Virus record (IMG/VR): IMGVR_UViG_3300017963_000577
Coordinates: 1 to 31,908 of that record
Source: a virus
DNA length: 31,908 nt
Reading direction: 5' to 3' (one strand)
The position numbers and the translations under genes were made by a program. The notes below the pieces were generated by a model. It searched no databases and was not told the DNA's origin. It saw nothing but the letters and a program-made list of their open reading frames with translations. Below, piece by piece: positions 5,207 through 22,125 of the stretch. How positions within the stretch are numbered: the stretch's first letter is position 1; every line of letters starts with the position of its first letter.

Positions 5207-5524
5207 TTAAATATCCTTCCTCTTCCAACCTTCTTTTTTAGCGATTTTCTTTGCTACTGCTTTAAAAGTTTTGCCATGATCCATCGGCTGATCATAGTGA
5301 GCCTGCTTAACATGAATCATTTCATGTACTAAAGTAGTGATAGTATCTTTTTTATTCATACCTTTAGCCAGCAGAATAACAATATCAGATGCAGTAGAGG
5401 TCATAGTATAACCATAAGCATCTTTCAGGTCTGCATAGACTATATCTACAAACGGCAAAGTATTTTTGAAGTACTTTTCATTGTAGTGATCGTACAGGTC
5501 AAATAATTTAGTGATTTTCATCAT
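5207..5524 (-). CDS. SprT-like zinc metallopeptidase (105 aa)
   Basis: The HExxH zinc motif is HEMIH at residues 67-71, and the third ligand is probably His83 in MDHGKTF, the H-G-x-x-F arrangement of the SprT/WLM class. The start at 5524 (MMKITKLFDL) is chosen because GGAGA sits 7 nt upstream; longer in-frame starts lack a site and would run into the promoter. SprT-family proteins cut DNA-bound or crosslinked proteins in cells and are common in phages. This one is short and appears to be little more than the catalytic core. First gene of the operon 5524 to 4269. Confidence 0.85.
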   Translation of the reverse strand: MMKITKLFDLYDHYNEKYFKNTLPFVDIVYADLKDAYGYTMTSTASDIVILLAKGMNKKDTITTLVHEMIHVKQAHYDQPMDHGKTFKAVAKKIAKKEGWKRKDI

Positions 5525-5543
5525 TTCTTTCTCCATTTTGTAT

Positions 5544-5572
5544 ATTATACGCCCTTTGCGAAAATAAATCAA
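5544..5572 (-). promoter_or_regulatory. sigma70-like promoter of the SprT operon
   Basis: On the minus strand, TTGATT (5572-5567), 17-nt spacer, perfect TATAAT (5549-5544), in the AAATTTGCGCTTGATT context shared with the other minus-strand promoters. Confidence 0.8.
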
Positions 5573-5715
5573 GCGCAAATTTCTTTTTGCAATCGCCCTG
5601 CGTAGTAGTACCTCTCACTTTAACTACAAGAATTAAAATACTAAGGTTACACAAATAATAGACTTCACAGAAAACTATCTACTGGATTTTTCAAGTTTTG
5701 AAGAACGTAAAGTTG

Positions 5716-5997: not shown

Positions 5998-6027
5998 TTG
6001 ACAAAAAGCCAGGCACTGTGCTAAAAT
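5998..6027 (+). promoter_or_regulatory. outward (antisense) sigma70-like promoter P+1
   Basis: TTGACA (5998-6003), 18-nt spacer, TAAAAT (6022-6027), followed at once by the GC-rich CGGCGCCGCGG. It faces the 3' end of the minus-strand gene at 6144-6500. Member of a repeated promoter family. Confidence 0.6.
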
Positions 6028-6143: not shown

Positions 6144-6500
6144 TTACGATTCCAGTTCGACTCCCGAGCACTCGACCAGGAAGGCACGCAGGCTCTTCAG
6201 GACCGGCTTAGTAGCTTTCTCAAGCGACTCAAAGGCCTCTTCCTCGACACCCACGATTTCTGCGATGTCGGCAACGATCTTTGCCTTGCTTTCGATAGCT
6301 TCACCGGCTTTGGTCTTACGGGCTTTCGCCTTGTACACGCCCATTGCGACGAGCTTCGAGCGAACCGAAGCAACGGATGCGCCCAGCTCCTTGTGGAAAG
6401 CTTCCACAACTCCTGCTCGCGCTTCGTCAGAATCGGCAGAAGTGTAGGCCTCGACCATACGAGAGGTAACTTCAGCGGTGTAGATGGTTTCTTTAGACAT
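6144..6500 (-). CDS. SANT/HTH-like putative DNA-binding protein, paralog 1 (118 aa)
   Basis: One of three paralogs in the window (with 7604-7936 and 11620-11961). All begin with K-x-x-x-YT-x-E, have a helix, then (A/K)S-(V/L)-ASVR-x-K (residues 41-49 here), then G-(V/L)-Y and a C-terminal helix with LEKAT near residues 93-97. The SVRxKL helix preceded by two helices resembles SANT/Myb-type or HTH DNA-binding folds found in small phage proteins; this is inferred from pattern, not proven. It is the most divergent copy and lacks the leader hairpin of the other two. It has its own promoter and terminator, so it is a monocistronic unit. AGGAGC precedes the ATG. Confidence 0.75.
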   Translation of the reverse strand: MSKETIYTAEVTSRMVEAYTSADSDEARAGVVEAFHKELGASVASVRSKLVAMGVYKAKARKTKAGEAIESKAKIVADIAEIVGVEEEAFESLEKATKPVLKSLRAFLVECSGVELES

Positions 6501-6787: not shown

Positions 6788-6817
6788 TTGACAAGAAGGC
6801 AACTACTGTGGTATAAT
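6788..6817 (+). promoter_or_regulatory. outward (antisense) promoter P+2
   Basis: TTGACA (6788-6793), 18-nt spacer, perfect TATAAT (6812-6817), then ATCGGCGCC. It is nearly consensus but has no plus-strand gene downstream. Confidence 0.65.
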
Positions 6818-6935: not shown

Positions 6936-7029
6936 ACGCTTGCGTACTGCACCGCGCGGCACTGAAATATCTGTACTTGAAATCCGACTACTGGCGCGGA
7001 GCGCGCTCCGCTTTAAATGCGAAAGCAAA

Positions 7030-7044
7030 TGATAATGATTCGCA
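7030..7044. promoter_or_regulatory. Fur-box-like palindrome A
   Basis: TGATAATGATTCGCA, a 7-1-7 arrangement differing from TGATAATnATTATCA only in the right arm. It sits in a 36-bp segment (7019-7054) repeated exactly at 8288-8323. Confidence 0.6.
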
Positions 7045-7070
7045 TTCCGCCGCCTCACGGCGCCCGCGAA

Positions 7071-7085
7071 TGAGAATCATTCGCA
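7071..7085. promoter_or_regulatory. Fur-box-like palindrome B
   Basis: TGAGAATCATTCGCA, close to the 7-1-7 Fur motif. Together with box A it forms a long inverted repeat (7034-7047 with 7068-7081, 13 of 14 bases paired). Confidence 0.6.
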
Positions 7086-7097
7086 TTTGGGGGCAGT

Positions 7098-7120
7098 AAA
7101 AAACCAGGCGTTGCGCCTGG
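7098..7120 (-). terminator. intrinsic terminator of the gene at 7233-7544
   Basis: On the minus strand, CCAGGCG, loop CAA, CGCCTGG, then six U residues (7103-7098). It lies about 110 nt after the stop codon; that stretch (7121-7232) holds no convincing ORF. Confidence 0.75.
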
Positions 7121-7232
7121 CATGAAAGTTGCATATTTTTCTCGGCAGCGGTTTTTAGCTTTACCCGTTAGGAACCGCCTTCCGCCTTTATATCCTTGCA
7201 GATGCGCGGGCCATCCTTGGCACGCTTTTTGC

Positions 7233-7544
7233 TTATTCCGCCTGGCGGCGAAGGAAATTCGGGATTTCTTCGTCTGTCGTAATGTCGTCAAATTCGACGG
7301 GGAACCTCGTTCCGGCTTTGAAGAAAGGAACCTCGGTAATGAGAATGATAGGCAGAATCGAATCGGCCACGTCACCCACCCAATATTTTTGCAGGGAAAG
7401 CGAATCCCATTCAGATTCCCATGAAATATCCGAGCGATCATAGCGGCAATCCATTTCTTCGCGCGCCAATTTTTTGGCGGTGAGCAGATCGGGGGTAATG
7501 CCGACAAAATCGTTATCTTCAGTTGAAACCAGATACATTTTCAT
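7233..7544 (-). CDS. hypothetical acidic protein (103 aa)
   Basis: MKMYLVSTEDNDFVGITPDL opens a beta-rich N-terminus. Many Asp and Glu follow, and IPNFLRRQ lies near the end. GAGGTG is 5 nt upstream of the ATG, and a strong promoter with a palindromic spacer precedes it. Not recognised. The mix of a short beta-hairpin and an acidic surface resembles small host-protein inhibitors or DNA mimics in general, but there is no specific evidence. Confidence 0.7.
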   Translation of the reverse strand: MKMYLVSTEDNDFVGITPDLLTAKKLAREEMDCRYDRSDISWESEWDSLSLQKYWVGDVADSILPIILITEVPFFKAGTRFPVEFDDITTDEEIPNFLRRQAE

Positions 7545-7571
7545 TTTGTCACCTCGTTTAATTGAGTCTTA

Positions 7572-7600
7572 ATTATCGGCCATCCTTGGCCGATTGTCAA
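7572..7600 (-). promoter_or_regulatory. promoter with inverted repeat in the spacer
   Basis: Minus strand TTGACA (7600-7595), 17-nt spacer, GATAAT (7577-7572). The space between the two boxes is an inverted repeat, ATCGGCC and GGCCGAT (7588-7594 with 7575-7581, 6-nt gap), placed as an operator would be. Two other promoters here share this design. Confidence 0.75.
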
Positions 7601-7603
7601 CCC

Positions 7604-7936
7604 TTATTCGCTATCCTGCGAAAGCGCTTCCCGAAGCGCGACCAGAACCTTTTTAGTCGCTTTTTCGAGCGACTCGGCCTGCTCCGCTTCCATGCCGAGA
7701 ACCTCGGCAATGTCGGCCACAATAGCGGCTTTGGTTTCCGGCTTTGCGCCAGTTTTGGAAACGTATTCCGCTTTTTTGTAGAGGCCCATGCGGACCGCTT
7801 TCTGGCGGACCGATGCAAGCGACTTGCCGAGAGTAGATGCCAGTTCGGCCACAGCAGCCTTATGGTCCACCTCGCCCGCGAAAGCTTCGCGGATTGCGGT
7901 TTCCATCTCAGGAGTATAATTTACGGTTTTAGCCAT
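7604..7936 (-). CDS. SANT/HTH-like putative DNA-binding protein, paralog 2 (110 aa)
   Basis: Reads MAKTVNYTPEMETAIREAFA, GKSLASVRQK at residues 37-46 and LEKATKKVLVALREALSQ near the C-terminus. It shares the MAKTVNYTPEM start and the SQD-type end with paralog 3, so the two are recent duplicates, while paralog 1 is older. GAGGAGG lies 7 nt upstream of the ATG. Its leader holds a perfect 8-bp hairpin that has a counterpart before paralog 3. A role as a DNA-binding regulator of the local promoter family is plausible but inferred. Confidence 0.8.
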   Translation of the reverse strand: MAKTVNYTPEMETAIREAFAGEVDHKAAVAELASTLGKSLASVRQKAVRMGLYKKAEYVSKTGAKPETKAAIVADIAEVLGMEAEQAESLEKATKKVLVALREALSQDSE

Positions 7937-7963
7937 TTCAGAACCTCCTCGGTTCGGTTAAAT

Positions 7964-7984
7964 GGTTGGGGCCAATCCCCAACC
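7964..7984 (-). promoter_or_regulatory. leader hairpin of paralog 2
   Basis: GGTTGGGG (7984-7977 read on the minus strand), loop ATTGG, CCCCAACC, upstream of AACCGA and the ribosome site. The counterpart before paralog 3 at 11989-12009 has the same layout, so the leader is part of the duplicated unit and may be a protein-binding or attenuator site. Confidence 0.6.
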
Positions 7985-7993
7985 GATAAGAAT

Positions 7994-8022
7994 ATTTTAC
8001 AGAATTCAGTAGCCGAGGTCAA
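7994..8022 (-). promoter_or_regulatory. sigma70-like promoter of paralog 2
   Basis: TTGACC (8022-8017), 17-nt spacer, TAAAAT (7999-7994), minus strand, with TTGCTTGACC context. The -35 lies inside the 3' end of the upstream gene. Confidence 0.75.
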
Positions 8023-8170
8023 GCAATTTTTTTGCCGACTCCACTACGGCCAGCTCACCGCACGCGCGCCCCATCCGCAGAAGCATTTGCGAGCTACGCT
8101 TATGAGAGTATTTTGCAACCCCCGACAGGTAAATTTTCGCGGCCGCGTGCGTATAGCTGTCGTCTTTCAT
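8006..8170 (-). CDS. small basic hypothetical protein (54 aa)
   Basis: Start at 8170 (MKDDSYTHAAAKIYLSGVAK) is chosen over the ATG at 8197 because 8197 falls at the predicted transcription start. The sequence between them matches the leader conserved at other local promoters (TAAAnCATnGG then an A-rich stretch). Helical and basic, with no family recognised. It is followed directly by the paralog 2 promoter. Confidence 0.65.
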   Translation of the reverse strand: MKDDSYTHAAAKIYLSGVAKYSHKRSSQMLLRMGRACGELAVVESAKKLLDLGY

Positions 8171-8203
8171 TTTGCTGGTTTCCGTTTGCTTTTCCATGGT
8201 TTA

Positions 8204-8232
8204 ATTATGGGGGAATCCGGCCAAAAATTCAA
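8204..8232 (-). promoter_or_regulatory. sigma70-like promoter of the 54-aa gene
   Basis: TTGAAT (8232-8227), 17-nt spacer, CATAAT (8209-8204), minus strand, with an A/T-rich upstream stretch. Confidence 0.65.
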
Positions 8233-8287
8233 GCAAAAAATTTCTATCTTGACTCGCCAGGTGATAGACCAGGCCTAACGTACGAAC

Positions 8288-8323
8288 GCGAAAGCAAATG
8301 ATAATGATTCGCATTCCGCCGCC
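8288..8323. promoter_or_regulatory. Fur-box-like palindrome C in a repeated 36-bp segment
   Basis: Identical over 36 bp to 7019-7054. The box itself is TGATAATGATTCGCA at 8299-8313. It lies between a TTGACT-containing promoter-like sequence (8249-8254, poor -10) and a plus-strand terminator. Confidence 0.6.
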
Positions 8324-8353
8324 GGCGCTTCGCGCGGGTTACGGCGCAATTTT

Positions 8354-8383
8354 CGTGCCAGGTTTGCGCCTGGCACGTTTTTT
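8354..8383 (+). terminator. strong intrinsic terminator on the plus strand
   Basis: CGTGCCAGG (8354-8362), loop TTTGCG, CCTGGCACG (8369-8377), then six U residues. The U-tract exists only on the plus strand, so it must serve a plus-strand transcript, although all annotated genes here are on the minus strand. Confidence 0.75.
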
Positions 8384-8385
8384 GC

Positions 8386-8580
8386 TTAAAGATATCTCTC
8401 GTAATAAGACAAAGTATCTAGCAATTCTAATATAGTTTCCTGTATTTCCTCTGCTTTATCTTCCGGTATATTTCCATTCATTAGGCCAGAATCTACAAAT
8501 TGCATTGCATAAAGTAAATTGTGGATTTCCCGCATATTTTTCAGGGTGATAGTTAATTCTATTTTGTGTTCAAAGTTCAT
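8386..8580 (-). CDS. hypothetical acidic helical protein (64 aa)
   Basis: MNFEHKIELTITLKNMREIH followed by amphipathic, acidic helices (EDKAEEIQETILELLDTL). GGAGA precedes the ATG, which overlaps the stop of the exonuclease gene by 11 bp. Last gene of the three-gene unit 9449 to 8386. Function unknown; coupling to the exonuclease suggests a related role. Confidence 0.7.
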   Translation of the reverse strand: MNFEHKIELTITLKNMREIHNLLYAMQFVDSGLMNGNIPEDKAEEIQETILELLDTLSYYERYL

Positions 8581-9232
8581 TTACAATTCTCCAAGGTTGA
8601 GCATTTACCTTTCCGAAAGGTATCTTTTTCTTCTGGCGAAAGCAAGCGGCCAAAATTCTATTTTCGATCTTTACATCTTCCAATGCTGTATGTTCTTCGA
8701 TATAATTCCAATCGGCTGAAATATAGCTGTATGCTTTCTCGGCATTAGTTCGTATATTTCCAGCGTCAGAAACCCAATTTTGTTCTCTAGCAAGTTGCAT
8801 ATAGGTTTTGCTGGAAAGTATAGTTTCGCAAGCGAATTGCCAAATATCTAGAACCCGCATGGGGCGATGCAGAAATTTACCTTCGCCGTTTGTAGATTTA
8901 ATTGCACCCATGTCAAAACCTACATTATAAGCGGCGAAAACATCTACATTGAATTTATCCAAATCCGCAAGAAATTCCGAGCGAATATCCTTCCAAGGTT
9001 TAATGGTAATGATACCTTTTGCGAGCATCGGTATATAATGCGAAAATATCTTTTTCGCATAAAACGCGCCCATCATTTTGTCGGCATCTATAATAGTTTC
9101 TTCGACAAGATAGGAACCTTCAGAATATACATTTCCTTTCTTATCTACAATTTGCCAAGCAAAATCATATACAGATTTATCTTGTAAACCGACGCATTCT
9201 GTATCAACAACGGCAAGCATCATTTTAGCCAT
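8570..9232 (-). CDS. DEDD-family (DnaQ/RNase T-like) 3'-5' exonuclease (220 aa)
   Basis: The exonuclease motifs are in order: Exo I with D10-T-E12 (AVVDTECVG), Exo II with N103 and D107 (AAYNVGFDMGA), and Exo III with H181 and D186 (HTALEDV). The four acidic residues and the His of a DEDDh enzyme are all present, so it should be an active two-metal-ion 3'-5' exonuclease on DNA or RNA. The ATG at 9232 is preferred to a TTG three codons earlier. It sits between two small genes in one overlapping unit. No polymerase is fused or adjacent, so it is free-standing and may trim RNA, degrade host DNA or proofread in trans. Confidence 0.85.
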   Translation of the reverse strand: MAKMMLAVVDTECVGLQDKSVYDFAWQIVDKKGNVYSEGSYLVEETIIDADKMMGAFYAKKIFSHYIPMLAKGIITIKPWKDIRSEFLADLDKFNVDVFAAYNVGFDMGAIKSTNGEGKFLHRPMRVLDIWQFACETILSSKTYMQLAREQNWVSDAGNIRTNAEKAYSYISADWNYIEEHTALEDVKIENRILAACFRQKKKIPFGKVNAQPWRIVNEL

Positions 9233-9233
9233 T

Positions 9234-9449
9234 TTATACAACCCCCAAACCGTTAAGGTTTATAAACATCAAAAGTAGATTGGTAATAAGTAAACCGAGC
9301 ATATTTCGTTCATGCGCGATATACATCCAAAGTATATTAGAAAACATCCCGATTGTAAAGCCGTGCGATACATTTTCGGAAAGTAAATAAAGGCCGACGA
9401 TCGTCAGGACCGTTGCTAGTGCTTCGATGATTTGTTCTGCTCTGTTCAT
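9234..9449 (-). CDS. small membrane protein (71 aa), possibly leaderless
   Basis: There are hydrophobic stretches at about residues 8-25 (EALATVLTIVGLYLLS), 30-43 and 50-66 (MLGLLITNLLLMFINL), giving two or three membrane helices. The ATG lies only 7 nt after the -10 box, at the expected transcription start, and no ribosome site precedes it, so the mRNA may be leaderless. It opens the operon with the exonuclease, whose ATG lies just past this stop. Function unknown. Confidence 0.65.
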   Translation of the reverse strand: MNRAEQIIEALATVLTIVGLYLLSENVSHGFTIGMFSNILWMYIAHERNMLGLLITNLLLMFINLNGLGVV

Positions 9450-9455
9450 GCTGTA

Positions 9456-9483
9456 ATTATAGCAAAGTGAATCGCTAAGTCAA
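9456..9483 (-). promoter_or_regulatory. sigma70-like promoter of the exonuclease operon
   Basis: TTGACT (9483-9478), 16-nt spacer, perfect TATAAT (9461-9456), minus strand. Confidence 0.75.
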
Positions 9484-9518
9484 CCAAAAAGATTCTATAG
9501 GCCCATAAAAATTTTTGC

Positions 9519-9548
9519 TTGACACCAGGCCGCGCGCCAGGGTATAAT
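9519..9548 (+). promoter_or_regulatory. outward (antisense) promoter P+5
   Basis: TTGACA (9519-9524), 18-nt spacer, perfect TATAAT (9543-9548), then CGGCGCGGCG. Fur-box-like palindrome D begins 7 nt after the -10, so a bound repressor would cover the start site. Confidence 0.7.
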
Positions 9549-9555
9549 CGGCGCG

Positions 9556-9580
9556 GCGAATGAGAATCATTCTCATTCGC
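9556..9580. promoter_or_regulatory. Fur-box-like palindrome D
   Basis: A perfect 12-1-12 palindrome. The core 9559-9577 is AATGAGAATCATTCTCATT, the classic form of a gammaproteobacterial Fur box. It lies 11 nt past the stop codon of the HAD gene and directly downstream of P+5. Flanking GCCAGGG (9536-9542) and CCCTGGC (9582-9588) extend the symmetry, so an RNA hairpin is also possible. Confidence 0.7.
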
Positions 9581-9591
9581 GCCCTGGCTAT

Positions 9592-10065
9592 TTAGTATCC
9601 TTGCGTTGATGGTACATAATGCGGAATCGCGCCGATAGCTTCCGAAACATCGCGCAAATAGTCTTTATTATCCTCCCAGAAATGCACGACCGCATTAGGG
9701 AAGCTAGCGATTATCGGCAACAATCCATTGATTTTCAATTCCGCGCCTTTGCGAACGTCATTCGGGCCGAGGCGATGAATGAAAAAATCCGGCAGCCCGA
9801 GCCGCTTTTCGACAAATTGCCAGTTTGCGTCACCCTTGACACAAGCGCGCGCGGTAGCAATTACGACCAAGGTTTCCGGGTCCATAATATCTTGCTTATA
9901 TTGTGCAGCATGGGGCAAAAGCGAGTCTTTTGCGATCTGTTCGGGAATGTCATTCTCGCGCCAGTGTTTGAGATCAATTCTCATTTCGCCGGGCACAGTC
10001 CGGTAACGATGGGAGCTAGAAATTACAGTCCCGTCAAGATCATAAACGTGAATCTTTTTAATCAT
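9592..10065 (-). CDS. HAD-superfamily phosphatase-like protein (157 aa)
   Basis: The HAD motifs are in order: motif I D9-x-D11-G-T (VYDLDGTV), motif II T71 (VIATARA), a lysine candidate for motif III (K106 in VRKGAELK) and motif IV EDN (131-133, HFWEDNKDY). It is therefore probably an Mg-dependent phosphohydrolase; small HAD proteins of phages act on nucleotide or nucleic-acid phosphates, including end-healing enzymes. Substrate unknown. The start at 10065 (MIKKIHVYDL) is chosen for GGAGAA 7 nt upstream. Single-gene unit with its own promoter; its 3' end abuts Fur-like box D. Confidence 0.8.
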   Translation of the reverse strand: MIKKIHVYDLDGTVISSSHRYRTVPGEMRIDLKHWRENDIPEQIAKDSLLPHAAQYKQDIMDPETLVVIATARACVKGDANWQFVEKRLGLPDFFIHRLGPNDVRKGAELKINGLLPIIASFPNAVVHFWEDNKDYLRDVSEAIGAIPHYVPSTQGY

Positions 10066-10089
10066 GCAATTTTCTCCTTTCATGCTTAT

Positions 10090-10117
10090 ATTATAGACCC
10101 TTGCCCCAAAATGTCAA
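10090..10117 (-). promoter_or_regulatory. sigma70-like promoter of the HAD gene
   Basis: TTGACA (10117-10112), 16-nt spacer, perfect TATAAT (10095-10090), minus strand. It is part of a duplicated divergent-promoter cassette matched at 11147-11227. Confidence 0.8.
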
Positions 10118-10140
10118 GCTATTTTTGTGAATTAAAAGAT

Positions 10141-10169
10141 TTGATTTCGCCAGGCGGCTGTGGTATAAT
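10141..10169 (+). promoter_or_regulatory. outward (antisense) promoter P+6
   Basis: TTGATT (10141-10146), 17-nt spacer, perfect TATAAT (10164-10169), then CGGCGCGGCC. The start site would lie just before or at the edge of Fur box E. Confidence 0.7.
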
Positions 10170-10180
10170 CGGCGCGGCCA

Positions 10181-10205
10181 GATGATAATGATTATCATTA
10201 TCATC
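10181..10205. promoter_or_regulatory. Fur box E (matches the consensus exactly)
   Basis: A perfect 12-1-12 palindrome. Read on the minus strand, 10202-10184 is GATAATGATAATCATTATC, identical at all 19 positions to the established Escherichia coli Fur-box consensus. It lies 10 nt after the stop codon of the gene at 10216-10488 and about 11 nt after the -10 of P+6, an ideal place to repress that promoter. Confidence 0.8.
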
Positions 10206-10215
10206 GGCTGCTCCG

Positions 10216-10488
10216 TTAGCGATAGCTTGCCCAGCTATCCGCATCATAGTGCGATTCGAGCCAATTGCAGATCCTAATTCCCAGCGGATCATCGTGCAGG
10301 ATCCGATCGCGCAGCTTGTCCCAGCTATAGCCCATCGCCAAGCCTAGCCCGATCACATCGTACCAATCATGAAACCAATGTACCGCATCGGGCGGAGCGC
10401 CGAAAGCCTCGCGCATGTTGTCGTCGATTGATTGAAAGGTAGCCGGATCGCTTGCGCCTTTCGGGGTAAGGGTGAAATAATTAGCCAT
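10216..10488 (-). CDS. hypothetical phage protein (90 aa)
   Basis: Start at 10488 (MANYFTLTPKGASDPATFQS) with GAGGAAA upstream. The middle reads WYDVIGLGLAMGYSWDKLRD and the end ESHYDADSWASYR. This YFTLT start, WYD-x-IG core and C-terminal D-x-W is a layout seen in many uncharacterised phage proteins. Last gene of a three-gene unit with ATG/stop overlaps. Function unknown. Confidence 0.75.
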   Translation of the reverse strand: MANYFTLTPKGASDPATFQSIDDNMREAFGAPPDAVHWFHDWYDVIGLGLAMGYSWDKLRDRILHDDPLGIRICNWLESHYDADSWASYR

Positions 10489-10627
10489 AATTAATTTCCT
10501 CGATATAGTAGCCTTGCCGGCCGTGTTCAAGAATCCAGCGCAGCGCCTGGCTGCGGCTGCGAAAGAATTTAACGGCGATGGGCCATCCTAGCCCGTTCTC
10601 GCCTTTGCAGATGATATATTCGATCAT
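10481..10627 (-). CDS. small hypothetical protein (48 aa)
   Basis: Reads MIEYIICKGENGLGWPIAVK, then an Arg/Ser-rich helix and a tyrosine-rich end. CGGAGGA precedes the ATG, which overlaps the upstream stop (ATGA); its own stop lies inside the next gene. These overlaps support it despite its length. Unknown function. Confidence 0.65.
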   Translation of the reverse strand: MIEYIICKGENGLGWPIAVKFFRSRSQALRWILEHGRQGYYIEEINYG

Positions 10628-10782
10628 CGAATCCTCCGAATTTTAATGATGCTATGCCCGACAGTCTGGCCGAATTTCCTGCAAACCTCGGCAGCACGCT
10701 TTTTAGCTTCTTTCTTGTCGGTAGCCCAATCAAGAAAGGTTCCGCGTTCGGTAGTAATTTCGTAGTGGCTAACCCGTGGCAT
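10624..10782 (-). CDS. small basic hypothetical protein (52 aa)
   Basis: Reads MPRVSHYEITTERGTFLDWA then DKKEAKKRAAEVCRKFGQTV. A beta-hairpin followed by a basic helix is suggested. GGAGAAAG precedes the ATG and a promoter with a palindromic spacer lies upstream. First gene of the unit 10782 to 10216. Confidence 0.7.
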   Translation of the reverse strand: MPRVSHYEITTERGTFLDWATDKKEAKKRAAEVCRKFGQTVGHSIIKIRRIR

Positions 10783-10815
10783 TTTGCTTTCTCCGTTCCG
10801 TTTCCCTATGCTTTA

Positions 10816-10844
10816 AGTATAGGGCAGTCCGTTGCCCTTGTCAA
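10816..10844 (-). promoter_or_regulatory. promoter with inverted repeat in the spacer
   Basis: TTGACA (10844-10839), 17-nt spacer, TATACT (10821-10816), minus strand. AGGGCA and TGCCCT (10821-10826 and 10833-10838) form an inverted repeat inside the spacer, as at 7572-7600 and 11588-11616. Confidence 0.75.
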
Positions 10845-10849
10845 GGGGT

Positions 10850-11020
10850 TTAGGCAAAAAATCCTTCGCCTTCCAAATAATCCGCGACAGCCTCGCGCGG
10901 GGTTAGCTCGGAATCCCAAAGATCCCACCAGCACCAGTCCGGCAGATCTCCGGAATCCATGCCGCCGAAACGCTCGCGGAGCAGATGGTCAACGATTATC
11001 ATCCATTGGTCAAAGCTCAT
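10850..11020 (-). CDS. hypothetical acidic, Trp-rich protein (56 aa)
   Basis: Reads MSFDQWMIIVDHLLRERFGG, DLPDWCWWDLWDSELTPREA and ends in an acidic helix. A D-L-P-D-W core followed by a P-x-EA helix occurs in short phage proteins of unknown function. GGGAGAA precedes the ATG. It follows the membrane peptide at 11032-11112 in the same unit. Confidence 0.7.
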   Translation of the reverse strand: MSFDQWMIIVDHLLRERFGGMDSGDLPDWCWWDLWDSELTPREAVADYLEGEGFFA

Positions 11021-11031
11021 TTTATTCTCCC

Positions 11032-11112
11032 TTAGACGATTGCGATGGTGAGCAGCATCACGATAGTGAAGCCTACGATAGTAGCGTTGCGAATCAGGTT
11101 CCAGTCGATCAT
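11032..11112 (-). CDS. 26-residue membrane peptide
   Basis: Reads MIDWNLIRNATIVGFTIVML and ends LTIAIV, a single hydrophobic helix. It has a ribosome-site-like GAGAGACAAG upstream and a strong promoter, and is followed after 11 nt by the next start. The promoter and leader support it. Confidence 0.6.
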   Translation of the reverse strand: MIDWNLIRNATIVGFTIVMLLTIAIV

Positions 11113-11146
11113 TTTCTTGTCTCTCGTTCCGTTTGCCTATGATTTA

Positions 11147-11174
11147 ATTATAGACCCCTGCCGCAAAATGTCAA
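11147..11174 (-). promoter_or_regulatory. sigma70-like promoter of the 26-aa gene
   Basis: TTGACA (11174-11169), 16-nt spacer, perfect TATAAT (11152-11147), minus strand. Near-identical to the promoter at 10090-10117 including flanks. Confidence 0.8.
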
Positions 11175-11197
11175 GCTATTTTTGAGAATTAAACGAT

Positions 11198-11227
11198 TTG
11201 ATTTCACCGCCAGGCCCGTGTTATAAT
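11198..11227 (+). promoter_or_regulatory. outward (antisense) promoter P+7
   Basis: TTGATT (11198-11203), 18-nt spacer, perfect TATAAT (11222-11227). Homologous to P+6 through the ATTTGATTTC and CGCCAGGC blocks. Fur-like box F lies about 30 nt downstream. Confidence 0.6.
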
Positions 11228-11256
11228 TGTAGTAGCGTCTTGCCCCGACGGCGCCT

Positions 11257-11285
11257 GTAACGCTAATCATAATGATTCGCATTAC
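11257..11285. promoter_or_regulatory. Fur-box-like palindrome F (weakest match)
   Basis: A 14-1-14 imperfect palindrome with two mismatched pairs. The core 11267-11281 is TCATAATGATTCGCA. It shares AATGATTCGCATT with boxes A and C and occupies the equivalent intergenic place, past a stop codon and next to an outward promoter. Confidence 0.45.
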
Positions 11286-11619: not shown

Positions 11620-11961
11620 CTAGTCAGCATCCTGCGAAAGAGCTTCCCGCACCTTCAGCAGTACCGGCTTGGTCGCTTTCTCCAGCGATTCAACCTGCTC
11701 CGCTTCCATGCCCAGCAGGGCAGCAATCTCGCCCACAATGTGAGCCTTGCTTTCGGCTTTCTCGCCTTGCTTGTTGGTGTATTCCTTCTTCTGATACACA
11801 CCCTCACGGCTCAGCTTCTGCCGGACCGAAGCAACGCTTTTGCCGAATTTCGTAGCCATGTTTGCGATCACCTCGGAGCGGGCATCGTAGCCCTCAGCCG
11901 CCTCATAGGCAGCGATGATTTCCTTGGTCATCTCAGGGGTATAGTTCACAGTCTTAGCCAT
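11620..11961 (-). CDS. SANT/HTH-like putative DNA-binding protein, paralog 3 (113 aa)
   Basis: Reads MAKTVNYTPEMTKEIIAAYE, with GKSVASVRQKL at residues 40-50, GVYQKKEY after it, and LEKATKPVLLKVREAL near the end. Closest to paralog 2: same first 11 residues, same ending type and a related leader hairpin. AGGAGAT precedes the ATG. It has its own promoter at 12019-12047 and lies at the right edge of the GC-richer minus-strand block. As with the other copies, DNA binding is inferred from the helix pattern. Confidence 0.8.
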   Translation of the reverse strand: MAKTVNYTPEMTKEIIAAYEAAEGYDARSEVIANMATKFGKSVASVRQKLSREGVYQKKEYTNKQGEKAESKAHIVGEIAALLGMEAEQVESLEKATKPVLLKVREALSQDAD

Positions 11962-12061: not shown

Positions 12062-12320
12062 TAGCCACATAAGCCAGGCTTATACAAATCCAAAACAAAA
12101 AGAATTTGTAATTAGCCAGGTGGTATGATCTTTGCTTATGCAAGAATCGTGCCAAGCCGGTTGGCACAGCTCTTGCTTAGCAAGAAGCGTGCCAGGGGCG
12201 GTTATCAGACTTTTCTTCCTACGGACTAGCCTGACCCCTCCTCACGTAAACCATCACAAAAAATTTCAATCAATTATGGTGCAATAATAGGGCTGCCATA
12301 CCCAAAACCAAAAAAATCTC
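12062..12320. repeat. intergenic repeats and hairpins upstream of terS
   Basis: No gene in about 300 bp. A direct repeat (12132-12154 and 12173-12194, TTGCTTA(T)GCAAGAA then CGTGCCA) flanks a hairpin GTGCCAA/TTGGCAC (12149-12155 with 12161-12167). Each repeat also has a small internal stem (TTGC/GCAA). A CCAGGTGGTATGAT sequence at 12114-12128 resembles the outward promoter family. This is the junction between the leftward block and the packaging genes, so a cis-acting packaging or replication site is conceivable. Confidence 0.5.
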
Positions 12321-20100: not shown

Positions 20101-22125
20101 CTTGGCGAAGAGGTTGCGGGATGGGCACCGCAAGATCCAGTAAATGGCGTATTAGAATGGGGTGATCTGGCTGGATTGACTAACACAAGGCAGTTGCGGG
20201 GTAATCTGCGGTTTGGTGTTTTTAGAATCGGCAGATGGTCTGACGCAAAATGCAGGGCGATAGTAAAAGATCCTTATGGGGAACTTTTCGAACCCGCCAA
20301 CCAATCGCCGTTACTGATAGGCGTATCGGGCGGGGCTGAGCCTGGCGATATAGTACCTTTTAATGGTATCGGTTCTAATGGTATCTCAGCAGGTACAGGT
20401 CAAGTTGGTCAATTAATACTCGGATATGTATTAACTGGTACTAACGGTACTTCAGCTGGTACGGGACAAATAGGTACTTTAACCACTGGTACTAGTTTCA
20501 TTGGTATTGGTTCTAATGGTACCTCAGCAGGTACAGGTCAAGGTGGAACACTAGCTCGCGGAGCTGTTGTAGTTGGTAATACAGGTACTTCAGCTGGTAC
20601 TGGTAATACTGGTACTCAAAATGTAGGGCACGTATTAACTGGTACTAACGGTACTTCAACGGGTACTGGTCAAACAGGCTCTGAGATTAGAGGTAACATT
20701 TTTGTTGGTTCTAATGGTACCTCAGCAGGTACAGGTCAAGGTGGAACACTAGCTCGTGGAGCTGTTGTAGTTGGTAATACAGGTACTTCAGCTGGTACTG
20801 GTAATACTGGTACTCAAAATGTAGGGCACGTATTAATTGGCTCTAATGGAACTTCAGCTGGTACAGGTCAAACAGGCGCTGAAGCGCTAGGATTAGTATT
20901 AACTGGGTCTAACGGTACTGCAACTGGCACTGGACAATTAGGTACCTTATATACAGGAAATGCATTTAGTGCAATCGGAGGTACAGGTACCTCAGTCGGC
21001 ACTGGACAATTAGGTACTCTAGCCAAAGGTCATGTACTAAATGGCGCTAGTGGAACTTCAACGGGTACTGGTCAAATAGGCTCTGAAGCGCTAGGATTAG
21101 TATTAACTGGTTCTAACGGTACTTCAGCTGGTACTGGTCAAACAGGTACTATAGCTGGCGGTGTAGAAGCTAATGGCCAATCAGGTACTTCAACAGGTAC
21201 TGGAGAAACAGGTACTGAAGTACGTGGTAATATTTTTGTTGGTTCTACTGGCACTTCAGCTGGTGTAGGTCAAAACGGTAATTTAATTGCTGGAGATTCC
21301 TTCATTGGAGCAGGAGGTACTGGTACTTCAGTTGGTACAGGCCAAACAGGTCAATTAAATCGTGGTAATGTACTTACTGGAAACTTCGGTACTTCAGCAG
21401 GTACAAGCCAACCAGGTACTGAAGTACGTGGTAATGTATTAACTGGCTCTTTTGGTACTTCAGCAGGTACAGGTAGTACAGGTACCGAAGTACGTGGTAA
21501 TGTATTTACTGGAGCTTCTGGTACTTCAGCAGGTACAGGTCAACCTGGAGACCTAACATATAACTTTGCTTTTGTAGGAGGTACGGGTACTTCGACAGGT
21601 ACAGGTAATACAGGTACCGAAGTACGTGGTAATATATTTACTGGAGCTTCTGGTACTTCTATAGGTACTGGTTTACAAGGTCTATTTAACGCAGTAGCGG
21701 GTACCGGACTGTACTTTGATAAATTAATATTACAGAGTGTAGAAGAGGATACTTTATTAACAGTTGTACAAAATCCTACTATTTTACAAAGTTTAGGTGA
21801 TAGTATAATTGTTGTAGAAAGTAATGATACAGTTGTACTAGTACAAGATGATACTACAGATGTTAAATTTATATATGTAGCAGAACAAGGACCAGCAGGA
21901 CCAGCCGGAGGAGAAGAAGTGCCATTAGCAAAGCAAGTTGATTTTATTGATGATGAGCATATTTATATTGGAGAGGCTGATCCAGGTACTCCGACATCTT
22001 CTGCTTTATGGCGTATTAAATATGTAGTAATAGCAACTGATAGTGATGTTGCTATTACTTGGGCGCAAGGTAACGCTACATTTGATAAAGTATGGGATGA
22101 TAGATTAATCTATACATATTCGTAA
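17131..22125 (+). CDS. giant fibre-like structural protein with LamG modules and Gly-rich repeats (1664 aa)
   Basis: Four modules of about 250-280 residues occupy residues 1-1070. Each looks like a concanavalin/LamG sandwich (TGEWHLFAMSWDATTVYGYV; NVWHDFLVTFSPTSGYKLTV). They are joined by related linkers at about 249-290, 532-580, 808-853 and 1053-1068 (SPFLIGTAA; QYFIPAGTPIHKAL; GWP). Residues about 1076-1523 hold 20 repeats built on GTSAGTGQ. The C-terminal 140 residues include EQGPAGPAGG and a folded end. Such proteins bind host surface glycans and form long fibres or appendages. The LamG part is clearly GC-richer than the repeat part, and the linkers are conserved in DNA, pointing to transfer and module duplication. 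Role in adsorption is inferred. Confidence 0.85.
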   Translation: MASPVRLLPDFPLARAARGWPSNPLERPACALIPGGKLGAKLSFFASQFRGRNSIQNYTGKDFTINGTVGVDHVEKANSTALVYSSDYADLSSALNGPNPPTPTSGTIAFYTKITTTSSGEDFFGIACDGTDFIGFRNITGDMYARYRGGGSNYNAVLGNIPTGEWHLFAMSWDATTVYGYVDGVLVDSAAHSKDTVSCDNIYINGDLQNDNVTTNVQSVYFAAGWGVPLSEAEHAELFRAPFNSSLQPANDSPLLIGTAAETSQYFIPANTPLAKAARGWPTAPVEKPNPGTAEVNRNNAFGSMVADFWIFGDGPEIKSITGSGADFNASATNTGVTNQPSYTDEPSYEEDPLNLRSRSGMGYGATGFSNDVFENFRVRPNYGTEYTIFGVCIRAADDYHRAIAPTAAYGSGGYCMLDAGADIYHAAGGGPGGSASTNTIIATNAGDRGYGKFDYYCLTRKGTDVTVWWNGEKQGTGTTLNATSEFEPLGLGYGAIASKWFRGVAFWCGVLDKGFPNDDAVIEALLADPFQCLQPADQSPFLIGTAAAEATISQYFIPPGTPVHKALSGWPASPQEKPKVPVRINWQHSDAQGLHHCYAFTRDTYIGKDLTGRRDGTLVGDSIEHQQDWLNFSGDNSADRIDLGTVTATGDLLGVKAQELTIVGSFRWEDTSGNGFPRIIEKSNAAGGGVGGWGLFFTNSSNTFELFINGSGKASVSVTANVWHDFLVTFSPTSGYKLTVKNRNTGAEVSNSSSPTNVPTDTCSVAIGNWAHASDREMQGDIGYLYVFSDVREEQAKRIWDAPFAFLEPANQSPFLIGTAAAEATTSQYFIPAGTPIHKALSSWPAPEEKPTIPLRLKSDLQIASAWIDKSLRDFATPGLGGYTPDSDAEWQADSWSFPSSLDTIKSADNLVMSANQDWSMACQFRIDTLVGNQYIMSCQSRDILSVHIDSATRLEVNADARDGPTFPTNQWITLVVRSEGTGSTRWFLLGEEVAGWAPQDPVNGVLEWGDLAGLTNTRQLRGNLRFGVFRIGRWSDAKCRAIVKDPYGELFEPANQSPLLIGVSGGAEPGDIVPFNGIGSNGISAGTGQVGQLILGYVLTGTNGTSAGTGQIGTLTTGTSFIGIGSNGTSAGTGQGGTLARGAVVVGNTGTSAGTGNTGTQNVGHVLTGTNGTSTGTGQTGSEIRGNIFVGSNGTSAGTGQGGTLARGAVVVGNTGTSAGTGNTGTQNVGHVLIGSNGTSAGTGQTGAEALGLVLTGSNGTATGTGQLGTLYTGNAFSAIGGTGTSVGTGQLGTLAKGHVLNGASGTSTGTGQIGSEALGLVLTGSNGTSAGTGQTGTIAGGVEANGQSGTSTGTGETGTEVRGNIFVGSTGTSAGVGQNGNLIAGDSFIGAGGTGTSVGTGQTGQLNRGNVLTGNFGTSAGTSQPGTEVRGNVLTGSFGTSAGTGSTGTEVRGNVFTGASGTSAGTGQPGDLTYNFAFVGGTGTSTGTGNTGTEVRGNIFTGASGTSIGTGLQGLFNAVAGTGLYFDKLILQSVEEDTLLTVVQNPTILQSLGDSIIVVESNDTVVLVQDDTTDVKFIYVAEQGPAGPAGGEEVPLAKQVDFIDDEHIYIGEADPGTPTSSALWRIKYVVIATDSDVAITWAQGNATFDKVWDDRLIYTYS
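20509..20836 (+). repeat. 130-bp direct repeat inside the fibre gene
   Basis: 20509-20638 and 20707-20836 are nearly identical (one visible C/T difference near 20560/20758), offset by 198 bp. They encode repeat units 3-4 and 6-7 of the Gly-rich region. Slippage or recombination between them would change fibre length in frame. Confidence 0.8.

Follow-up and report, generated by a model that had tools for sequence, protein, structure and literature searches.

Fur-type boxes between minus-strand genes of a T5-family phage fragment as predicted docking sites for host Fur

The DNA analyzed here (the window) comprises all 31,908 bases of IMG/VR virus record IMGVR_UViG_3300017963_000577 and carries six palindromes resembling the bacterial Fur box, all within one block of minus-strand genes. 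The large terminase of the window matched those of T5-type phages, with Vibrio phages as best matches at approximately 49% identity, and by this measure the window is a fragment of a marine T5-family phage; no direct nucleotide relatives were found among isolates. The minus-strand block holds three homologues of T5 A2, a homologue of the dmp phosphatase and the exonuclease that follows dmp in relatives. A2-family DNA-binding proteins are encoded at 11620 to 11961 (phrog_1725, E = 5.9e-12, and alignment) and, as paralogues assigned by a phrog_1725 family match and alignment, at 7604 to 7936 and 6144 to 6500; T5 A2 itself also matched phrog_1725 (4.3e-52). The HAD-type phosphatase at 9592 to 10083 (phrog_415) is a homologue of the T5-family pre-early gene dmp, and its product and the dmp proteins of T5 and KIT04 matched one common place in locus L138 and in further relatives, while the dmp-like gene as query against viral contigs gave a single weak place only. 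The DEDD-type exonuclease-like protein (phrog_20187) is encoded at 8570 to 9241. Between this block and terS, at 12195 to 12251, lies a T5-family element, GGCGGT(A/T)AT(G/C)AGACT..TTCTC..CACGTA in a nine-phage alignment, which in VspSw_1, KIT04, KPP2018, AhSzq-1 and marine contigs occupies either the interval from dmp to terS or a place close to the genome end; it is probably a genome-end or packaging site, and its junction with terS is probably a collapsed genome end. The A2 and dmp homologues, together with the element adjoining terS, mark the minus-strand block as the putative pre-early region beside the genome end, transferred in the first step.

Fur-type boxes were sought by scoring 19-mers out of 18 against the Fur consensus AATGATAATNATTATCATT, with 100 dinucleotide shuffles as control. 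Matches of at least 15/18 were found at 7 window positions, compared with a mean of 0.07 per shuffle; 5 positions reached at least 16, which no shuffle did, the best having reached 15. Scanning against shuffled sequence had been set beforehand as one of two refuting tests, and because the consensus match was well beyond chance and the boxes far above the shuffles, we rejected the possibility that these are chance AT-rich palindromes. The whole window was scanned, and the six boxes are confined to 7028 to 11283, each between minus-strand genes. The initial annotation had reported six Fur-box-like palindromes, all in intergenic gaps and none in the left operon or the plus-strand block, and in these respects it was borne out; exact 19-mers could be placed, at starts displaced 0 to 8 nt from those first given. 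Each box consists of inverted heptamers about AAT-N-ATT. The 7-1-7 form ascribed to all of them was exact in one box (at 9559), and in the others 6 to 8 of 9 arm positions were identical, which fits mixed Fur half-sites.

Two boxes with the exact family pattern lie at 7028 to 7046 (AATGATAATGATTCGCATT, half-sites GAT/GCG, 16/18) and 7069 to 7087 (AATGAGAATCATTCGCATT, half-sites GAG/GCG, 15/18), 146 to 187 nt behind a gene 3' end; the other four are at most 71 nt behind one. The box at 8297 to 8315 (again AATGATAATGATTCGCATT, 16/18) is situated between the end of gene 8386-8580, 71 nt behind its 3' end, and gene 8006-8197, and 39 nt downstream of it an intrinsic-terminator-like hairpin with TTTTTT is present on the plus strand (8354 to 8384). 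The perfect palindrome AATGAGAATCATTCTCATT at 9559 to 9577 (16/18) lies 15 nt behind the dmp-like gene. Overlapping boxes were found at 10181 to 10199 (17/18) and 10187 to 10205 (16/18), together GATGATAATGATTATCATTATCATC, and at 11259 to 11277 (14/18) and 11265 to 11283 (15/18, AATCATAATGATTCGCATT), the gene used for the 3'-end distance of the last being a 64-amino-acid open reading frame only. The likeness to the bacterial Fur box (7-1-7, Escherichia coli/Vibrio consensus) extends from the 19-bp inverted repeat of heptamers ending in AAT-N-ATT to overlapping frames 6 bp apart (10181/10187) and, for boxes 9559 and 10181, to a position over a sigma-70 start site. Unlike known Fur boxes, those of the window are in a phage, behind pre-early genes and on antisense-facing promoters, and their binding by Fur is predicted.

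Since most boxes are close behind genes, they might instead act in RNA, as hairpins that close pre-early transcripts at the 3' end and protect or terminate the message, and four of five window box stretches did fold better than shuffles. Such folding ability is, however, common to any palindrome, the stretch at 8297 folded no better than shuffles, and no U tract directly follows the boxes. Moreover, among sites with recognized halves, 10 of 29 half-site pairs were homotypic, compared with 11.2 expected if the halves were independent, and the flanks of 242 sites showed no consistent pairing. Half-sites that vary independently and unpaired flanks favor recognition by a protein dimer with degenerate half-sites over an RNA stem; with no covariation in these 29 pairs and 242 flanks, RNA hairpins under selection were rejected and are very improbable. 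In vitro binding by Vibrio-type Fur is documented for the consensus AATGATAATAATTATCATT (PMC7536154). The match to the consensus, together with conservation in relatives (see below), gives good support to the Fur-type identity proposed in the initial annotation, and host Fur very probably binds the boxes.

Two of the boxes form a module with a promoter. At 9519 to 9548 on the plus strand, a consensus sigma-70 promoter (TTGACA-18-TATAAT, 12/12) faces back over the dmp-like gene, and box 9559 starts 10 nt past its -10 element and covers approximately +3 to +22. A box over about +3 to +22 occupies the usual position of a repressor. A sigma-70-like promoter at 10141 to 10169 (TTGATT-17-TATAAT, 10/12, plus strand) likewise faces back over gene 10216-10530, with box 10181 just downstream, starting 11 nt past the -10 element. 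A similar promoter at 11198 to 11227 (TTGATT-18-TATAAT, plus strand) has box 11265 37 nt downstream and represents a degenerate module; promoter proximity was loose or absent for all four boxes other than 9559 and 10181. In both window modules the box starts 9 to 13 nt past the -10 of a strong sigma-70 promoter, and the same spacing was found in relatives' loci L153, L170 (three times), L173, L187, L188, L189, L203, L206, L223 and L228 (three times). Module promoters were nearly always TTGACA with a 17- to 18-bp spacer, the window promoter at 10141 having TTGATT, and they usually point back into a pre-early gene; for the window, L170 and L228, the 3' end of that gene was seen to lie close by. 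This promoter spacing favors local repression or a roadblock.

As a separate observation, several plus-strand promoters of the window form a family marked by CGGCGC a short distance past the -10 element (5988, 6778 and 9509). CGGCGC-family promoters at 5998, 6788 and 6907 lack a neighboring Fur box and point away from the minus-strand genes; the one at 6788 to 6817 is a consensus sigma-70 promoter (TTGACA-18-TATAAT) with ATCGGCGCCG after its -10. A SprT-like metallopeptidase is encoded at 5207 to 5578, and a similar-looking gene adjoins a Fur-type module in L170 (8810 to 9196).

To compare relatives, loci were fetched by terminase or exonuclease similarity, never by motif. The same boxes were found in these loci, including many marine contigs: the exonuclease relatives (592 kb) held 10 exact Fur-type sites and the terminase relatives (716 kb) held 7, compared with 0 in shuffles of either set, although some of the contigs overlap or are near duplicates, so that not all counts are independent. 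In a palindrome count that used no motif, the Fur-type TGAGAATnATTCTCA came first among odd palindromes and the parS-like GTTCCACGTGGAAC/GTTTCACGTGAAAC first among even ones; twelve other regulator motifs showed little or no enrichment. The sites preferred gaps, in a test that is conservative because the simple gene caller used over-calls open reading frames in gaps. Close relatives kept the boxes in equivalent gaps (around dmp, the exonuclease gene and the T5 injection stop signal), as had been asked of them at the outset.

Fur-type boxes were also present in Klebsiella, Vibrio and Aeromonas relatives. Isolates carried them at 6969 to 7563 (DT57C), 49519 to 50027 (KPP2018), 83991 to 84386 (VspSw_1) and 6052 (KIT04), and Aeromonas phage AhSzq-1 has a box with one mismatch near 107 kb. 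In a scan of five isolates, in which T5 and KIT04 were covered to 30 kb only, the first-step region (14.7% of bases scanned) held 18 of 18 Fur, 7 of 7 LexA and 21 of 21 DnaA sites. In scans of complete genomes, no match to a reversed control pattern was seen, and T5 and DT57C held the exact Fur pattern solely within their two terminal repeat regions. The T5 boxes (9552, 9656 and 9691) lie inside the annotated injection stop signal (iss; 9140 to 10149), which also holds one LexA-type box and DnaA-type repeats. Record AY587007 lists T5 palindromes D to J and direct repeats B and C without identity; the sequence of palindrome D, TACTGTATAAATATACAGTA, is that of a LexA-type box, and direct repeat C contains AAATGAGAATCATTATCATTT. 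Candidate partners can thus be named for the iss elements, namely, Fur for repeat C and palindromes E to I, LexA for palindrome D and DnaA for repeat B. In and beyond the T5 iss (L147, 9750 to 10480) we also noted a repeated TGTGCAAATCCGACA, which is direct repeat D of the T5 record, and a similar GGTGCAAATCCGA in KIT04.

These positions raise the possibility that host proteins (Fur, DnaA, LexA or ParB) on first-step DNA assemble into a nucleoprotein block or anchor, pausing transfer until A1 and A2 act. Host components are already suspected of blocking the second T5 transfer step, which is still called poorly understood (PMC13250531), and three A2-like proteins are encoded beside the window boxes. 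The window shares with the T5 iss the letters of the box and, by its A2/dmp content and the element beside terS, the region of the genome; unlike the iss, its boxes extend across 4 kb, without clustering at one end or, with DnaA boxes or other palindromes, in one gap, and no perfect DnaA box, LexA site or parS site was found in the window. Proteins on cytoplasmic DNA, moreover, do not obviously halt further entry, and an A1 homologue was not seen in the window or in relatives' loci save for one partial match in L090. As the main function of the boxes, such a component of the injection stop seems doubtful.

DnaA, LexA or ParB sites accompanied the Fur-type boxes in relatives. Exonuclease relatives held 25 parS-like sites compared with 0 expected; TGTTCCACGTGGAACA, TGTTTCACGTGAAACA or near variants were found in L094, L096, L098, L101, L105, L128, L228 and others, within approximately 0.1 to 1 kb of the exonuclease gene; in several contigs such a palindrome was no more than 50 bp away from a Fur-type box. 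No parS was present in the isolates scanned (T5, DT57C, KPP2018, VspSw_1, KIT04 and AhSzq-1). Sites of this kind also occur in phages outside the family. In the Pseudomonas phage phiPsa374, which has no relationship to T5, a Fur-type box with one mismatch and a parS site are confined to the terminal repeats (208 and 390 of repeat L272, 1 to 526). Phapecoctavirus nepoznato, which infects E. coli and does not belong to the T5 family, carries an array of three Fur-type boxes spaced 29 bp apart within a gap of 800 bp (73699 to 73775; L273, 2200 to 2276). The marine T5-type relatives and phiPsa374 resemble chromosomal parS/ParB systems in carrying parS, near Fur-type boxes; the difference lies in the want of parS in the window and of a phage ParB in the records searched. 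The 24 records searched held no FUR-family gene, nor did the 18 of them searched for ParB hold a ParB gene; within these records, a phage-encoded Fur or ParB was rejected.

A phage protein might nevertheless be the binder, the boxes being operators, most likely of the A2 family, that merely resemble Fur boxes. The pre-early A2 protein binds DNA, and the boxes are interspersed with three A2-like genes; yet the letters match the host Fur consensus across 19 bp, the boxes coexist with LexA, DnaA and parS sites in relatives, and similar arrays occur in P. nepoznato, no phage of its size being present in a spread sample of A2 matches. We consider operators of this kind improbable.

The initial annotation had offered a decoy function, in which the boxes multiply with the phage genome, absorb host Fur and derepress iron uptake and TonB-type receptors. 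Several real Fur-type copies are indeed present, doubled where terminal repeats hold them, and sites for other host regulators lie nearby in relatives. As in the Fur titration assay, multicopy sites could compete for Fur, but those of the window are low in number, restricted in location and in part coupled to promoters. The plasmid copy numbers of that assay are far higher, and Fur is present at thousands of molecules per cell. Where any exact sites were found there were 1 to 8 per genome, so that titration would be weak until late and would need far more sites or late timing, when the benefit of extra receptors is doubtful. A decoy has no need of a fixed promoter spacing, nor would a purely iron-related purpose explain the accompanying DnaA, LexA and ParB sites, and in isolates the sites are confined to the pre-early region. 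T5-type (A1-type) phages degrade host DNA early (PMC13250531), which would leave little host regulon to derepress. On these grounds titration is disfavored: genome-wide titration is unlikely, and less likely than action as a local operator or roadblock.

The reading we favor, with a probability of roughly 55%, is that the six palindromes are predicted sites of host Fur docking with a local operator or roadblock function, as part of a family-wide design for the first transfer step. The first-injected DNA of T5-type phages would carry docking sites for host DNA-binding proteins, with Fur-type sites in most members, accompanied by DnaA and LexA sites in those of enterobacteria, Vibrio and Aeromonas and by parS sites (for ParB) in many marine ones. 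Iron-loaded Fur would bind the boxes while the phage DNA enters; at 9559 and 10181, bound Fur would cover the start site of the sigma-70 promoters facing back into the preceding gene and keep these antisense promoters off, and it would probably block read-through between pre-early units. It may also contribute to pausing of DNA transfer at the injection stop signal. Several points weigh against this reading: the canonical promoter module accompanies only two of the six window boxes, exact boxes are missing from some relatives, antisense transcripts from the promoters at 9519 and 10141 are predicted, the Fur specificity of the host is assumed, and a phage DNA-binding protein, for example A2, could bind the sites alongside Fur or in its place. 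A wider proposal is more tentative, namely, that T5-type phages and, independently, other virulent phages (for example phiPsa374) load their first-injected DNA with docking sites, suited to the host, for several abundant chromosome-binding host proteins (Fur, DnaA, LexA and ParB), and that host proteins might coat or anchor this DNA and aid a two-step takeover.

The binding partner of the T5 injection stop signal is a long-standing open question, and palindromes recorded in T5 without function now have a testable identity. Through the promoter-operator module, the iron status of the host could influence pre-early transcription of the phage. A literature search returned no description of Fur sites in T5-type phages, an earlier mention in the T5 literature remaining possible. 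Elsewhere in the window, at 20358 to 21685, approximately 20 imperfect 66-nt repeats encode GTSAGTGQ-like units within a 1,664-amino-acid protein among the late genes.

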